Shown here: positions 10,055 through 52,153 of the stretch, piece by piece
How the letters are laid out: every line of letters starts with the position of its first letter
How positions within the stretch are numbered: position 1 is the first letter of the stretch
IMG/VR virus record: IMGVR_UViG_3300032242_000738
Span: 20,220 to 84,219 of that record
Strand: one strand, 5' to 3'
DNA from: a virus
Length of the DNA: 64,000 nucleotides
Position numbers and translations under genes: made by a program
Notes under the pieces: generated by a model
Databases searched by the model: none
What the model saw: only the letters and a program-made list of their open reading frames with translations
What the model was told of the DNA's origin: nothing

Positions 10055-10083
10055 TTGACAATAAACTAAACATATGCTATAAT
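10055..10083 (+). promoter_or_regulatory. Consensus sigma-70 early promoter
   Basis: TTGACA at 10055-10060, 17-nt spacer, TATAAT at 10078-10083 with TGC in front as an extended -10: a full consensus match and the strongest promoter seen in the window. It drives the operon 10116-12336. Confidence 0.9.
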
Positions 10084-10115: not shown

Positions 10116-11309
10116 ATGGCAACACGTAAACCCATAAAGAAAATCATTAAAGCTAGTGATTATTCACAGGTTAAGACACTTAACCCTAAAGACCCGGATA
10201 CAGAATATTTAGGTCCTGAACCTATGTTTGCCGTACAGCCCGATGCAGATAGACGCCGAGTAGCACTTATGCGTAGTTTTACTTGGTATGGACGTTTTTA
10301 TGGTAAGAAAGATGCTAAAGAATTCTTAGCACAATACTTAGACCTACGTGACCGCCCACAAGAAGCTAAAATCATGCGTAAGATTGATGAGAAAGAATGT
10401 ATCAATACACTATGCTGGTTAGCACGTATGGAATTGCGTGGATTAGAACTGTCCGAAACAGAATCAGATACACTACAAAACGAAATTGTACGATTGCTTG
10501 AAACTATTAATAAGCCACAAGTAGTTGAAGCTTCAATTACCGGTGCACCTGAAGTTCCCACAAGACCTAATATTCAGGAAATTCTTAAAGATAAAGCACG
10601 TGAAGCCGGTGGTGAACTTGAAGGACTGTTTGATGAATATATTACATCAGGCGCCGGAACAAAACATACATTACGTCCAATTGACGAAGTGGCTAAAAAG
10701 AATGTAATGCCACAACATATCAGTATGTTGACCGAAGTATGGAAAAAGAAATTGAATGAGATTGAAGAGGTACTGAAAGGTACGGATAGTCAATTGGTTC
10801 AGGGATATCAGCATCTATCCAAAACACAACTAAAGAATGTTGTAAAGTTTATTGAATTGGTCATCAATGATTTAAACAGTTATATTAGTGTTAAGAAAGC
10901 GGCAAAAGCACCACGTGCCCGAAAAGCTGTTCCTGTAGAGAAACAGGTGGCAAAATTGAAATATCTGAAAACATTTGTAGATACTGCAAATAAGCTTGAT
11001 TTAGTAAGTGTCAGTCCTATCAAACTACATGGTGCAAGTGAAGCTTGGGTATATGATACCGCAAAGCGTAAACTACATCATTATGTTGCAGATGAATATA
11101 GCAAAACATTTACTGTTAAAGGTAGCACATTGTTAGGTTTTGATACTGCACAAAGTGAAACTAAGACATTGAGAAAGCCGAGTGAACAGATTAAAGAAGT
11201 TATGGGTAGCAAGCCGGCTGCACGTAAATTCTACAAAGATATTAAAGCAGTTAGCACAACACCTAATGGTCGCTTTAATGAGAATATGATTATACTGAAA
11301 GCATTTTAA
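10116..11309 (+). CDS. Conserved T4-like early protein of unknown function
   Basis: 397 aa with a good AGGAG binding site and the consensus early promoter in front. The N-terminus is basic (ATRKPIKKIIKASDY). Residues about 45-140 (WYGRFYGKKDAKEFLAQYL, then a helical Glu-rich part) and 200-290 look helical, and residues 300-397 look mixed and basic. No Walker, nuclease or zinc motif is visible. From memory, similar proteins are conserved but uncharacterised in T4-like phages of marine bacteria. Its place at the head of a strongly promoted operon with MazG-like and MutH-like genes suggests a role in early nucleic-acid metabolism; this is inference. Confidence 0.6.
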   Translation: MATRKPIKKIIKASDYSQVKTLNPKDPDTEYLGPEPMFAVQPDADRRRVALMRSFTWYGRFYGKKDAKEFLAQYLDLRDRPQEAKIMRKIDEKECINTLCWLARMELRGLELSETESDTLQNEIVRLLETINKPQVVEASITGAPEVPTRPNIQEILKDKAREAGGELEGLFDEYITSGAGTKHTLRPIDEVAKKNVMPQHISMLTEVWKKKLNEIEEVLKGTDSQLVQGYQHLSKTQLKNVVKFIELVINDLNSYISVKKAAKAPRARKAVPVEKQVAKLKYLKTFVDTANKLDLVSVSPIKLHGASEAWVYDTAKRKLHHYVADEYSKTFTVKGSTLLGFDTAQSETKTLRKPSEQIKEVMGSKPAARKFYKDIKAVSTTPNGRFNENMIILKAF

Positions 11310-46215: not shown

Positions 46216-46223
46216 GATAAATA
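46216..46223 (+). promoter_or_regulatory. Late box GATAAATA, distal copy
   Basis: Exact motif 63 nt before the ATG at 46286; a second copy is at 46273. The gene may have two late starts, one leadered and one leaderless. Confidence 0.55.
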
Positions 46224-46895: not shown

Positions 46896-47453
46896 ATGAC
46901 TAATAAAACTATATTAAACGAAGGCTTAGATTATCATGACCTAGAAGGGCAAATGATACCTACAGTAACGGTAGATGAATATGCCGCACACATGGGTACC
47001 GACAGTGAAATTGTAACATTAGCATTTACTATTAAAAGTGAAGCAGCCGGTAATGATTTAGTTGATTGGTTTGAGCGTGGTTATGATTTTGTATTAGATG
47101 CACAAGTAAGTGAAGGTGAAGTTAAGCCTGGACGATATCTAGTGTTTGTAGAAATGAATCGTAGAACTAGTGTACCAAAACGTATAATAGAATTATTAGA
47201 TGATTTAGAGACATTAACAGCTATACCAGTTAAAGATTGGACAATTATAGTTGATGATGAAGAATATCCACCTGAAGAAGATATATTAAAGCAAGTTATT
47301 ACTATCAGTCCACATGATTATCGTGAGACTGAAGAAGTTGAAGAAGAAGAAATAAATGAAATGCGTGAACGTGCTGGACTAGAAGTTAAAGCTATTCATT
47401 CAGATAAACAAGATGCTGATATTAAAGCATACAAATCAATGGCAGGACTATAA
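46896..47453 (+). CDS. Conserved late protein paired with its upstream neighbour
   Basis: 185 aa starting at 46896 (MTNKTILNEGLDYHDLEGQM), 1 nt after the upstream stop; an in-frame ATG at 46866 would overlap the preceding gene. Alpha/beta core (VTLAFTIKSEAAGNDLVDWFERGYDFVLDAQVSEGEVKPGRYLVFVEMNRRTSVPKRIIELLDDLETLT) and an acidic C-terminus. This gene pair is conserved together in related phages as I recall. Its stop overlaps the next start (TAATG). Function unknown. Confidence 0.6.
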   Translation: MTNKTILNEGLDYHDLEGQMIPTVTVDEYAAHMGTDSEIVTLAFTIKSEAAGNDLVDWFERGYDFVLDAQVSEGEVKPGRYLVFVEMNRRTSVPKRIIELLDDLETLTAIPVKDWTIIVDDEEYPPEEDILKQVITISPHDYRETEEVEEEEINEMRERAGLEVKAIHSDKQDADIKAYKSMAGL

Positions 47454-48103
47454 TGGCAACTATATTACCAAAAAAAGCAGGATACGAAAACCCAATAGCA
47501 ACTGATGATGATCACCATGAAGCATTAGCGGCTGACCCTACGATAAGTCAATTCCCACAAGGAAGTACATTTGGAGATAATAATGGTTTCAACACATCAT
47601 CAAGCGGGCCTTCAGCATTTGGCTCATCTACAGCAGGAGGCTTCGGATCAGCCGGCACTTTTGGTTCATCAGCTACAGCAGGCTTTGGTTCAAGTTCAGG
47701 GTTTGGAGCACCAGCGAGTTCGTTTGGCGGAACAACCAATAACATGGGATCCACCGGCACAAGCAACATGAATATGAGTGTTGGCAATCAGCCTGTACTT
47801 ACTGGTGCAGGATCTAATGCCGCACAAGGTGCAGATGTGTTAGTAGCAAATGATAACACAGATTGGATCAACAAAAAATGGCGTCCTGTTATGGGCTGGG
47901 TTTATATGATGACATGTACATGTGACTTTGTTATATTCCCCGTATTATGGAGCTTATTACAGGCAATGAGTAAGGGTAGTGTTACTAGTCAATGGCAACC
48001 ACTAACATTACAGGGTGCTGGATTATACCACATCGCTATGGGTGCTGTACTTGGTATCGCAGCTTACGGGCGAACAAAAGAAAAAATTGAAGGTAAATCA
48101 TAA
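47453..48103 (+). CDS. Membrane protein, GTA-type holin candidate with FG-repeat N-terminus
   Basis: 216 aa. Residues about 38-92 are a disordered Ser/Gly/Ala stretch with seven FG dipeptides (TFG, AFG, GFG, SFG). After a short linker, DWINKKWRPVMGWVYMMTCTCDFVIFPVLWSLL (137-169) and LYHIAMGAVLGIAAYGRTKEK (191-211) give two membrane segments in the pattern of the 3TM/GTA-type holin family (W-R-P then a final G-R-T-x-E-K). It is late and overlaps the upstream stop by one base. Lysis or DNA-ejection membrane role possible; the FG domain is unusual. Confidence 0.6.
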   Translation: MATILPKKAGYENPIATDDDHHEALAADPTISQFPQGSTFGDNNGFNTSSSGPSAFGSSTAGGFGSAGTFGSSATAGFGSSSGFGAPASSFGGTTNNMGSTGTSNMNMSVGNQPVLTGAGSNAAQGADVLVANDNTDWINKKWRPVMGWVYMMTCTCDFVIFPVLWSLLQAMSKGSVTSQWQPLTLQGAGLYHIAMGAVLGIAAYGRTKEKIEGKS

Positions 48104-48109
48104 TAAATA

Positions 48110-48138
48110 TTGACTTAACACACTAACTGTGTTATATT
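48110..48138 (+). promoter_or_regulatory. Sigma-70 promoter of the J-domain/ClpA operon
   Basis: TTGACT (48110-48115), 17 nt, TATATT (48133-48138). The ATG at 48146 lies 7 nt past the -10, so the mRNA should begin at the start codon. Confidence 0.65.
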
Positions 48139-48145
48139 TGATATT

Positions 48146-48952
48146 ATGACAGACTACTATTCAACTTTAGGTGTTGGTAAAAATGCTAACGCCGATGAAA
48201 TTAAACAAGCATATAGAAGATTAGCAGGTAAACATCACCCGGATAAAGGTGGTGATACCGCTACATTTCAAAAGATAGAAGAAGCATATCGCATTCTTAG
48301 TGATCCACAACAACGTCAACAATATGATAATCCAATTAATCAGGGTAATCCCTTCCAAGGATTTCCGGGAGGTGGATTCCAATTCAATATGAATGGATTC
48401 AATATGGATGAAATATTTGGACAAATGTTCAGACAACAACATAATAATCCATTTAATCAACAAAACACATATAGAACTACATATTGGATTAGTTTAGAAC
48501 ATGTGTATAATGGCGGTGAAGAAGTATTGAAATTACAAACTCCCACCGGAGCACATATGGTTAAAGTAAATATTCCAAAAGGAATACAAGATGGTGGACA
48601 GGTTCGCTATGAAAAAGTTATTGATTCTAGTGATTTAATTGTAGAATATAGAATTCACCCACATTTAAAATATGAAAGAAGAATCAATGACTTGTATAGT
48701 AATCATCCTATATCTGTATTAGATTTAATTGTGGGTAGTACTTTTGAATTTGTTACTATCAGTGGTAAAAAATTAGAAGTAACTGTACAGCCCAACACAC
48801 AACCATATATGCATCTGAAACTAAACAATCAAGGACTTCCAATACAGGGAACTAATATATTTGGTGACCAAATCATCTTGCTAAAACCCTTTATTCCTGA
48901 TAATATAGACAGTCGTATAACTGATAGCATTTTGCTATCTAAAGCACAGTAA
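48146..48952 (+). CDS. J-domain (DnaJ/CbpA-type) co-chaperone
   Basis: 268 aa. J domain at 1-65 with DYYSTLGVGKNANADEIKQAYRRLAGKHHPDKGGD and the invariant HPD at 31-33; a Gly/Phe/Asn region at 66-105; then the two beta-sandwich substrate-binding domains (LEHVYNGGEEVLKLQTP, VNIPKGIQDGGQVRY) without the zinc finger, so class B like CbpA. It would recruit host DnaK to chosen clients. It stands directly in front of the phage ClpA gene (24 nt) behind one promoter, which suggests a joint chaperone-unfoldase task. Confidence 0.93.
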   Translation: MTDYYSTLGVGKNANADEIKQAYRRLAGKHHPDKGGDTATFQKIEEAYRILSDPQQRQQYDNPINQGNPFQGFPGGGFQFNMNGFNMDEIFGQMFRQQHNNPFNQQNTYRTTYWISLEHVYNGGEEVLKLQTPTGAHMVKVNIPKGIQDGGQVRYEKVIDSSDLIVEYRIHPHLKYERRINDLYSNHPISVLDLIVGSTFEFVTISGKKLEVTVQPNTQPYMHLKLNNQGLPIQGTNIFGDQIILLKPFIPDNIDSRITDSILLSKAQ

Positions 48953-48976
48953 ATATTATTTTAAAAGGAAATACTA

Positions 48977-51253
48977 GTGAATAATTCACCCGAAATTGAA
49001 GCTATCATTGAACAGGCTATTGAGTTTTCTAAACAACGAAAACATCAATATTGCACTATTGAACATTTGTTATTATCGCTTATAACACATACTCCATTTA
49101 AAAAATGTTTAGATAGTTTTGGTTGTGAAACACAAACTATGATTCAGGAAGTTACTTCATATATTGATAGCTTACACGCTATCGTAGCAAAAGTAGACCC
49201 TGAAGTGGAAGTACAACCCAAAAAGACAAATAGCTTAGAACGTGTAATGAATCGTAGTGTAACACAAGTTCTATTCACAGGACGTAGACAAGTAACTACC
49301 ATTGACTTGTATCTAAGTATCTCAAGTGAGGGCAATAGTCATGCACATTACTTCTTGTTGAAATATGGTATCAATAAAAATGACTTTGTACCACATTGGC
49401 AAAAAACATACAAGGGTGCAGAATTTACTACTAAATTGTCTGAAAGTCAAGCAGATGAGATACTTGAAGAATATACTACTAATCTCAGTCAATTAGCACG
49501 TCAAGGTAAACTTGAACCACTAATTGGACGCACTAAAGAACTTGATGACATTATCAATGTACTTGCTAAACGATTTAAGAGTAATGTATTGATGGTAGGT
49601 GATCCAGGTGTGGGTAAAACAGCTATTGCAGAAGGTCTTGCACAAACAATCGCACTAGGTGATTGTCCTGAATTCATTATTAACCACGATGTATATAGTC
49701 TTGAAATAGGTGCATTGCTTGCTGGTAGTAAATATCGCGGTGACTTTGAAGAAAAAGTTAAAGCTGTATTAGACGCATTGAATACTAAAAAGAAAGCAAT
49801 ATTGTTCATTGATGAAGCACATACCATGAAGGGTAGTGGTTCTTCAACTAGTGGATCTATTGATTTTGCCAACATGATTAAACCTGCAATTACTAAAGGT
49901 ACACTTAAAGTTATTGCTAGTACTACTTGGGAAGAATACTACGAAAGCTTTGAGAAAGACCGTGCATTGATGCGTAGATTCTATCGTGTATCAGTGGATG
50001 AACCATCACATGATAGTACAATTCGCATTCTTAGTGGATTAAGCACACGATTGAATGACTTTCATGAAGTAGAAATCAGTGAAGAAGCAGTAACGGCAGC
50101 GGTAGAAATGTCAGCACGATATATTCACGACCGTAAGAATCCAGATAAATCTATTGACCTACTTGATGCGGCTTGTGCTAAACAACGTGTTGCAGGTAAT
50201 AAAGGTATAATCATTACTAAAGACTTGATCCACGAGCAAGTTGAGAAATTCACCGGCGTCCCTGCTGATAAGCTTAATGGTGATAACTATGACCGTATCA
50301 ATAATCTTGAGATTAACATCAAGGGTAAATTGTATGGACAAGATGAAACAGTTGAACAAGTATTAGAACGTATCTATGTTAGCTTTGCTGGCATTGGTAA
50401 TGAATCTAAGCCTACAGCAAGTTTTATCTTCTTAGGCCCAACTGGTACAGGTAAAACAGAATTGGCTAAGTTGTTAAGTAAAAACCTTGATATGCCATTA
50501 CTCAAGTATGATATGAGTGAATATAGTGAGAAACATTCAGTATCAAGTTTGATTGGTCCTCCCCCTGGCTATGTTGGCTTTGGTGATAGTCAAGTTGGTG
50601 GTGGACGATTAATCAATGACTTAAGCAAGAACCCACATAGTATTTTGTTATTTGATGAGGTTGAGAAAGCACATCCAGATATCTTTAATATCTTCTTACA
50701 GATGTTAGATGAGGGTCGTATTACTGGTAGTAATGGTAAAGAAGTTAACTGTAAAAATACCATCATTATTATGACAAGTAACTTGGGTAGTAGTGATAGT
50801 GAGAAAAACAATATTGGATTCGGTAGCCAAGAAAAGATTGGTGAGGATGACAAAGCAATTAAAGAATTCTTTAAACCAGAATTTAGAAATCGTGTTGATT
50901 TGATTTGTAAGTTTGGTAAACTAGATACATTAGCTATTAAGAAGATTGTTGTTAAGTTTACAGAAGATTTGAAGAAATCATTGGTTGAGAAGCATAATAT
51001 CAGTTTGAATCTAAGTGAGCCAGTTGTTGATTATCTAGCTGATAAGGGTTATGATAAGAAAATGGGTGCTCGTCCATTAGGTCGTAAGATTGATGAATTG
51101 ATTCGTGTACCATTGAGTAAGAAAATATTGTTTGAACGTATTAAAAATGCTACAGTAACATGTGTATTGGTAGATAATAATATTGAATTTAATGTAGTTC
51201 AAAAATCAATTGCGAAAGTAGGATCAGATGGCATTATTGAAATCAGTAACTAA
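48977..51253 (+). CDS. clpA-like: ClpA-type AAA+ unfoldase with ClpP-docking IGF loop
   Basis: 758 aa, the E. coli ClpA size, GTG start with AAAAGGAAAT upstream. Clp N-domain (1-145), first AAA+ module with Walker A GDPGVGKT at 208-215 and LFIDEAH (276-282), second module with GPTGTGKT at 487-494 and LLFDEVEKAHPDIF (557-570). No ClpB middle coiled coil. Between sensor 1 and FKPEFRNRVD lies NNIGFGSQEK (611-620), whose IGF at 613-615 is at the place of the ClpA IGL/ClpX IGF loop that docks ClpP. No ClpP is in the window, so it probably uses the host protease. The next gene overlaps by 26 nt. Confidence 0.93.
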   Translation: MNNSPEIEAIIEQAIEFSKQRKHQYCTIEHLLLSLITHTPFKKCLDSFGCETQTMIQEVTSYIDSLHAIVAKVDPEVEVQPKKTNSLERVMNRSVTQVLFTGRRQVTTIDLYLSISSEGNSHAHYFLLKYGINKNDFVPHWQKTYKGAEFTTKLSESQADEILEEYTTNLSQLARQGKLEPLIGRTKELDDIINVLAKRFKSNVLMVGDPGVGKTAIAEGLAQTIALGDCPEFIINHDVYSLEIGALLAGSKYRGDFEEKVKAVLDALNTKKKAILFIDEAHTMKGSGSSTSGSIDFANMIKPAITKGTLKVIASTTWEEYYESFEKDRALMRRFYRVSVDEPSHDSTIRILSGLSTRLNDFHEVEISEEAVTAAVEMSARYIHDRKNPDKSIDLLDAACAKQRVAGNKGIIITKDLIHEQVEKFTGVPADKLNGDNYDRINNLEINIKGKLYGQDETVEQVLERIYVSFAGIGNESKPTASFIFLGPTGTGKTELAKLLSKNLDMPLLKYDMSEYSEKHSVSSLIGPPPGYVGFGDSQVGGGRLINDLSKNPHSILLFDEVEKAHPDIFNIFLQMLDEGRITGSNGKEVNCKNTIIIMTSNLGSSDSEKNNIGFGSQEKIGEDDKAIKEFFKPEFRNRVDLICKFGKLDTLAIKKIVVKFTEDLKKSLVEKHNISLNLSEPVVDYLADKGYDKKMGARPLGRKIDELIRVPLSKKILFERIKNATVTCVLVDNNIEFNVVQKSIAKVGSDGIIEISN

Positions 51254-51953
51254 TGTACCGGGTATTGATTATTACGATTACCGAGATAGTGACTATTACA
51301 ACAAGTACATTTATCGGGTAAGATTCAAAATGCCTAGTATTAGGTATATAATCAATGAAACGTCTGTTGATGGTTTGATGAAGCGGTATAATGCTACCAG
51401 TGGATGGAGAGTTATTAAAGATACCGATCGTCCAGAAGTTACAGCAGATTTAGAAGCACTTAAACAATTAATAGAATTACGTAAATCATTTAAAAAAGAT
51501 GGCTCAGCAATTATTCGTTTAGAATGGCATACAGCATCAATTTTTAGTAATGATTTATCTTTACTGAAACGTATTGAAAATATCAAGCCTGAATTAGATT
51601 ATGATTATACCCAAGTACAGACAAATAATTTTGTAGGGGTAAAATCATTTGCTAAAGAGCCTAAACATAAGTTTAGAGTATATTTAAAATCTAAGATAGT
51701 TAAAGGTGGTTTAGTAGAACAGCTTGATGAATTATTAAAACGTACCCCTAGCTTATATCCCTGTAATTCATTAAAATATTGGTTATTGGGTGCAGTTCTT
51801 ACTAAAAATCAATATAGTTGGAGATATCGTTTTACCAGCCCTATACATTTCATTGATTATGATGATGAAAGTACATTAAGTTATCTAGCATTAATGCATG
51901 GGGAATATCTTGGAAAACGCTATAAATTAGAAAAACGCCTTGAACCTATCTAA
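51228..51953 (+). CDS. Conserved hypothetical protein overlapping the clpA end
   Basis: 241 aa from the in-frame ATG at 51228, which lies 26 nt inside the ClpA gene. Aromatic and basic: DYYDYRDSDYYNKYIYRVRFKMPSIRYI, then alternating strands and helices; SWRYRFTSPIHFIDYDDESTLSYLALMHGEYLGKRYKLEKRL at the end. No signal peptide or catalytic motif; function not recognised. Coupling to ClpA suggests co-expression, though the ATG is not the only possible start. Confidence 0.55.
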   Translation: MALLKSVTNVPGIDYYDYRDSDYYNKYIYRVRFKMPSIRYIINETSVDGLMKRYNATSGWRVIKDTDRPEVTADLEALKQLIELRKSFKKDGSAIIRLEWHTASIFSNDLSLLKRIENIKPELDYDYTQVQTNNFVGVKSFAKEPKHKFRVYLKSKIVKGGLVEQLDELLKRTPSLYPCNSLKYWLLGAVLTKNQYSWRYRFTSPIHFIDYDDESTLSYLALMHGEYLGKRYKLEKRLEPI

Positions 51954-51956
51954 AAT

Positions 51957-51964
51957 GATAAATA
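51957..51964 (+). promoter_or_regulatory. Late promoter box GATAAATA of the small gene at 51989
   Basis: Exact motif 24 nt before the start codon. It also forms the left arm of a hairpin that covers the binding site. Confidence 0.7.
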
Positions 51965-51988: not shown

Positions 51989-52153
51989 ATGGCAAAGATT
52001 GTAACAGAATCAATCGTAATCACGTTTAGTAAGATAGTAAAAGATACTGAGCAGGGAGCTAGTATTACTAGTCCTGAGATAGAAGCGGCTTTAGAACAAG
52101 TTGCCCAAGAATTAATTGGCGATAGTGTAGTTGTTGAGGTTGTAAAAGCATAA
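51989..52153 (+). CDS. 54-residue small acidic protein
   Basis: Small gene with its own late box, a GGAG binding site and coupling to the next gene (TAATG at 52151). The product, starting MAKIVTESIVITFSKIVK and ending in GDSVVVEVVKA, has beta strands at both ends and an acidic helix (SPEIEAALEQVAQELI) between. I recall similar very small proteins in T4-like cyanophages. Function unknown; its regulation and coupling make it a convincing gene. Confidence 0.65.
   Translation: MAKIVTESIVITFSKIVKDTEQGASITSPEIEAALEQVAQELIGDSVVVEVVKA

Follow-up and report, generated by a model that had tools for sequence, protein, structure and literature searches.

Our analyses indicate that the window, a stretch of 64,000 bases comprising bases 20220–84219 of an 84,219-base virus record, probably (we would put it at about two chances in three) comes from a jumbo phage of a freshwater lineage with a Clp proteostasis system of its own (ClpAPS/ClpXP), one half of which is a linked pair of genes for a J-domain protein and a ClpA-type unfoldase. 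In the mechanism that we propose, the J protein and ClpA would be transcribed from a host-type sigma-70 promoter, probably early, and the other half of the system would be provided by an island 53–73 kb downstream that encodes ClpX, Hsp20, ClpS, ClpP and sometimes DnaK. Proteins with destabilising N-termini would be handed to the phage ClpA by the phage ClpS, and the two ATPase rings of ClpA would unfold these substrates and thread them into the phage ClpP, docked via an IGF loop. The same ClpP may also be fed by ClpX, and DnaK (of the phage or of the host) would be recruited by the J protein, with substrates kept soluble or handed over. Gene content, motifs, gene order, co-inheritance and the type of promoter are read from the sequence, and from these we infer how the phage Clp system may assemble, act, be timed and choose its substrates.

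The J protein and ClpA of the window

The J protein is encoded on the plus strand at 48146–48952 (268 aa) and shows Pfam matches to DnaJ (1.2e-22) and DnaJ_C (4.7e-23) together with a G/F-rich linker; because no zinc-finger match was found for it in Pfam, we assign it to class B. Its HPD motif (residues 31–33) is retained in 79/79 of the relatives that have the J gene. After a gap of only 24 bases it is followed on the same strand by the gene for ClpA (48977–51253; 758 aa; GTG start), both genes being full-length. The Pfam domains of this ClpA are Clp_N, AAA, AAA_lid_9, AAA_2 and ClpB_D2-small, and residues 5–733 of E. coli ClpA are collinear with it (E 1e-183); in a protein of this length and collinearity, a middle domain of the ClpB/ClpC type is absent. 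Both of the ATPase sites are intact, viz. the D1 Walker A motif GDPGVGKT (49598–49621) with its Walker B at 49799–49822 and the D2 Walker A motif GPTGTGKT (50435–50458) with its Walker B at 50642–50668, as is the D2 pore loop GYVG (50567–50578), all on the plus strand.

The predicted ClpP-docking loop, I613-G614-F615 (50813–50821, plus strand), aligns with IGL617–619 of E. coli ClpA. Across the lineage, all 81 sequences carry IGF at this site while adjoining positions vary: I613, G614, F615 and G616 are unchanged in all of the 46 non-redundant relatives, compared with 57% at position 606, 63% at 608 and 54% at 617. With Clp_N, two AAA+ modules, paired Walker motifs and an [ILV]G[FL] loop, the window ClpA has the characteristics of Hsp100 class I. 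These results bear out the initial annotation in its description of a class B J protein and a full-length ClpA with both ATPase sites, the N-domain and an IGF at the docking position. PADLOC matches of ClpA were dismissed as generic AAA+ similarity.

ClpP, ClpS and the downstream island in related phages

The initial annotation had further stated that no ClpP or ClpS is present. This is true of the 84,219-base record, within which neither was found, but is not borne out as a property of the virus. The record is a fragment that ends 12.7 kb past ClpA, and its lack of ClpP and ClpS is as expected of a fragment. Among close relatives (ClpA 76–93% identical to that of the window), the length of each record past ClpA was compared with the presence of ClpP. 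All 8 of the records that extend at least 53 kb past ClpA (G002, G003, G007, G008, G011, G012, G013 and G014) contain ClpP, located 53–73 kb past ClpA and on the same strand as it, and none of the 8 records that extend 52 kb or less (G000, G001, G005, G006, G009, G010, G015 and G016) contains it. ClpS divides the long and short records in the same manner. The record G004 (524 kb) was left out of the ClpP count, as several markers occur in it twice at inconsistent spacing and it is probably chimeric. The absence of ClpP and ClpS was hence dropped as evidence, being a fragment artefact, since all adequately long relatives encode both; by synteny with these relatives, both proteins are very probably encoded by the window phage.

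The island of G002 consists, in order, of ClpX (zinc finger plus AAA_2), DnaK, Hsp20, ClpS, a SprT-like protein and ClpP; the island of G003 agrees with it, and those of G008 and G013 are without DnaK at that place. DnaK is encoded in G002, G003, G004 and G013, whereas several long records (G008, G011, G014, Atu_ph07 and Phosso) yielded no DnaK. The three DnaKs examined form one clade (100/100) within the Burkholderiales in our tree, in the Comamonadaceae/Sphaerotilaceae group, which suggests a betaproteobacterial host. A search for a phage GrpE returned none. The Ser-His-Asp catalytic triad is complete in all 21 of the phage ClpPs examined. In E. coli numbering, the ClpS of the window lineage retains N34, D35, T38, M40, H66, E79 and K84, has T in place of M62 and carries D, E or N at the position of D36; we take the positions compared to be residues of the N-degron pocket, with roles as for E. 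coli ClpS. RaK2-like phages show greater divergence in their ClpS than the window lineage does. Aat (Leu/Phe-tRNA-protein transferase, PF03588) was found in 0/15 phage records, and the host Aat could act in place of a phage one.

Among isolated jumbo phages, a full-length ClpP and a ClpS match are present in 12/12 of those that carry a Clp_N-type ClpA (viz. Atu_ph07, Phosso, Paride, RaK2, Vibrio 2.275.O, 7t3, KP13-7, Hallingskeid, GAP32, slurp01, SNUABM_47 and XaC1), the ClpS match of XaC1 being weak (18.4 bits, under the cut-off); most of the twelve are mutually related, and the counts for ClpA, ClpP and ClpS do not represent independent events. In Paride, ClpX, ClpS and ClpP lie inside 12 kb. 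ClpS was found in none of 9 jumbo controls without a Clp_N-type ClpA (phiKZ, G, PaBG, SPN3US, XacN1, phiR1-37, KVP40, CcrColossus and Ea35-70), and a full-length ClpP in one of them (G, next to ClpX), with weak partial S14 matches in three. ClpA matches in phage records labelled 'Listeria', 'Enterococcus' and 'Acinetobacter MD-2021a' were left out, as they look like bacterial contamination.

These observations bear directly on the explanation that the initial annotation had put forward, viz. that a ClpA without a phage partner takes over the host machinery: early in infection the phage ClpA would dock on host ClpP, the J protein would engage host DnaK, and proteolysis would be redirected. The intact IGF loop and the sigma-70 promoter agree with this explanation, as does the failure to find DnaK in several long records, in which case the J protein must frequently rely on the DnaK of the host. 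A parallel for the J half is provided by RB43 Rki, like the window J a phage J protein, which is expressed early and binds and acts on E. coli DnaK (PMC3486835); no ClpA linkage is reported for Rki, and the window protein differs from it in having DnaJ_C and being of the class-B type. However, the argument from a missing partner fails for a lineage with its own ClpS, ClpX, triad-intact ClpP and, in some members, DnaK. In the RaK2-like phages, furthermore, the docking loops have drifted (IGV, IGM, VGM, LGM, IGG, MNM and VGF) and the phage ClpP has drifted too (~35–38% identical to E. coli ClpP), which suggests adaptation of the loop to the phage's own ClpP. Host takeover thus appears unlikely as an account of the whole unit, though possible for the J protein, and the genome no longer leads us to predict docking on host ClpP. 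If instead the phage has its own Clp system, jumbo phages carrying a whole regulated protease would remove proteins independently of the host Clp system, and the prediction shifts from a phage that borrows host ClpP to one that should tolerate its loss.

Three ClpA records are without a full-length ClpP or ClpS, viz. those of the Vibrio phages 1.170.O and P018-4, and LR756501. The ClpAs of the first two (L148 2322–4577 and L149 1676–3850) have an N-domain that is not Clp_N and retain GIGF/GVGF, and that of LR756501 has lost the docking loop. Because they combine the docking loop with the absence of a full-length phage ClpP, ClpAs of the Vibrio 1.170.O type would seem better candidates for hijacking of host ClpP than the ClpA of the window.

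Transcription of the J–ClpA unit

A sigma-70 promoter (TTGACT-17-TATATT, with a TG-extended −10) is located ahead of the J gene at 48110–48138 on the plus strand. A generic promoter scan of the region gave results at chance level (26 sites versus 23.9 expected), and it was replaced by an analysis of conservation across relatives with shuffled sequences and neighbouring genes as controls. A score of at least 10.5 out of 12.5 (TTGACA/TATAAT at normal spacing) was reached by 39 of the 48 distinct 60-base regions upstream of J, versus 1.4% of shuffles and 0–1 of ~50 regions for each of six neighbouring genes. The elements of this promoter are kept among relatives despite a diverged spacer, which argues that it is real, and the earlier claim that J and ClpA share one sigma-70 promoter is thereby upheld. 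The spacer contains an operator-like palindrome, TAACACA-CTAAC-TGTGTTA (48116–48134), which is probably an operator for a regulator: its letters change between relatives with compensating changes and its symmetry stays, with arms of at least 5 in 26 of 44 relatives (shuffled mean 6.1, maximum 15). A regulon sharing the palindrome was not established, as among the island genes inspected a similar promoter precedes clpP in G008 only; ahead of clpP in G013 there is a sigma-70-like site but no palindrome, and in G002 and G003 neither is present. The window's other strong sigma-70-type site, a perfect TTGACA-17-TATAAT with an extended −10, lies at 10055 before a 397-aa gene at 10116 (phrog_11903).

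An uncharacterised ORF of 241 aa (51228–51953, plus strand) shares its first 26 bases with the 3′ end of the ClpA gene and is found in all 77 of the relatives with room for it. It has no match in Pfam or PHROG and is probably the third gene of the J–ClpA transcript. A possible function is that of an adaptor or a substrate of the Clp system.

The motif ATAAATA, mostly as GATAAATA, is found ahead of 18 of the 57 genes of the window (1.2 expected). GATAAATA is strongly biased in strand (16 on plus, 1 on minus) and sits ~20–50 bases ahead of many structural genes; by likeness to the T4 late promoter TATAAATA, it is probably the late promoter of the window phage. One copy (46216–46223, plus strand) precedes the upstream structural genes and another (51957–51964, plus strand) precedes the gene at 51989 and marks the downstream limit of the sigma-70 unit, so that J, ClpA and the 241-aa ORF would form a sigma-70 unit within a late region. 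The early expression assumed in the initial annotation is plausible for a unit with its own conserved sigma-70 promoter among structural genes that carry GATAAATA, but a late-like AATAAATA lies directly upstream of the −35 element, an A/GATAAATA site being present in 25 of 78 relatives, and late expression in addition is possible. The sigma-70 promoter alone proves neither early nor exclusive expression.

The location of the unit also relates to a second alternative, in which J–ClpA would be a late machine of virion assembly or quality control that folds, unfolds and clears very large structural proteins. Structural genes flank the unit on both sides, and it is preceded by PhoH and two virion structural genes in an order common to Paride and Atu_ph07; the RaK2-like ClpA adjoins tail-sheath and giant virion genes, and one ClpP peptide has been reported from the CBB virion (PMC5259590). 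Such a role is nonetheless rather improbable, for the unit has a conserved sigma-70 promoter of its own instead of the GATAAATA motif of its neighbours, and Clp is not mentioned in the text of the RaK2 paper, which has virion proteomics. In the product of the gene immediately before J (47453–48103), a possible holin, a long low-complexity region is followed by a GTA_holin_3TM-like domain at the C-terminus.

Known systems and spread of the J–ClpA unit

Like ClpA of E. coli ClpAPS (PDB 6w1z and 7uiv series), the window ClpA has Clp_N, two AAA+ rings, GYVG and the docking loop, to which its phage relatives add a triad-bearing ClpP and a ClpS with most of the N-degron-pocket residues. Unlike E. 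coli ClpAPS, the proteins are phage-encoded, clpA is partnered with a J-protein gene and not with clpS, the phage clpS and clpP are found together with clpX and hsp20 at a distance of tens of kb, M62 of the window-lineage ClpS is T, and no Aat was found in the phage records searched. Individual Clp and chaperone genes of jumbo phages have already been published (PMC6102473, PMC7824862, PMC12619734, PMC9723584). The gene list of Agrobacterium phage Atu_ph07 includes ClpX, ClpA, ClpB, ClpP, ClpS and DnaJ (Attai et al. 2018, PMC6102473); this phage resembles the window in having J directly before ClpA, with a ClpA only 38% identical to that of the window, and its genes are listed singly in that paper, which describes no linked J–ClpA unit, promoter or co-inheritance. 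A survey found ClpP, ClpS, ClpA and DnaJ in jumbo phages and described some phages as having ClpS 'instead' of ClpP, feeding host ClpAP (PMC7824862), whereas ClpS in our data shares genomes with phage ClpA and ClpP (12/12 isolates). In Moraphages, which are large (200–307 kb) and mostly freshwater, ClpA is a core family and DnaJ, DnaK and Hsp20 occur in some, according to the text consulted (PMC12619734), which gives a DnaK of Bacteroidota and in which no discussion of ClpP/ClpS was found, whereas DnaK of the window relatives falls within the Burkholderiales and their records reach about 350 kb. Among the openly accessible papers searched, none was seen to describe the J–(PDF)–ClpA unit (PDF being peptide deformylase), its promoter or the co-inheritance of ClpA, ClpP and ClpS, and both the co-inheritance and the unit appear to be undescribed.

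The J gene immediately precedes ClpA in all 79 of the close loci that leave room for it, and likewise in Atu_ph07 and Paride. Scans with the Paride and Atu_ph07 ClpAs yielded 104 distant loci with room, in 93 of which J is upstream (66 of 74 after dropping ClpAs >90% identical). The ClpAs of the distant loci are 32–46% identical to that of the window, which indicates that the J–ClpA unit is old. Peptide deformylase, identified from the motifs EGCLS and HExxH (Pfam 7.8e-35 in Phosso), lies between J and ClpA in 40 of these 93 loci, or 32 after the removal of near-duplicates (L268–L382). All of the distant ClpAs aligned have [IVL]GF as their docking loop, which together with the invariant IGF of the lineage (81/81), the lack of a ClpB-like middle domain and the co-inherited ClpP makes it very improbable that ClpA and J/DnaK act like ClpB as a protease-independent disaggregase, in spite of the resemblance of the J–ClpA adjacency to the way in which DnaK/J and ClpB work as a pair, and of the loop-less ClpA of LR756501, a genome without a ClpP or ClpS match.

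Within the phage's own Clp system, J–(peptide deformylase)–ClpA and ClpS–ClpP may conceivably, though this is doubtful, constitute a phage-built pathway for protein N-termini, in which deformylase and ClpS would decide which N-termini become exposed and recognised and J, as a dedicated partner, would hand Hsp70-bound clients to ClpAP. We know of no J–ClpA adaptor pairing of this kind in bacteria. The J–(PDF)–ClpA unit would offer a route to substrates, and to the question of whether Hsp70 co-chaperones feed ClpA directly. In Paride, the gene directly before ClpA encodes Paride_0096 (L125 3239–3928), which carries a hypothetical annotation and is a J-domain protein by its Pfam match (DnaJ 3e-17).
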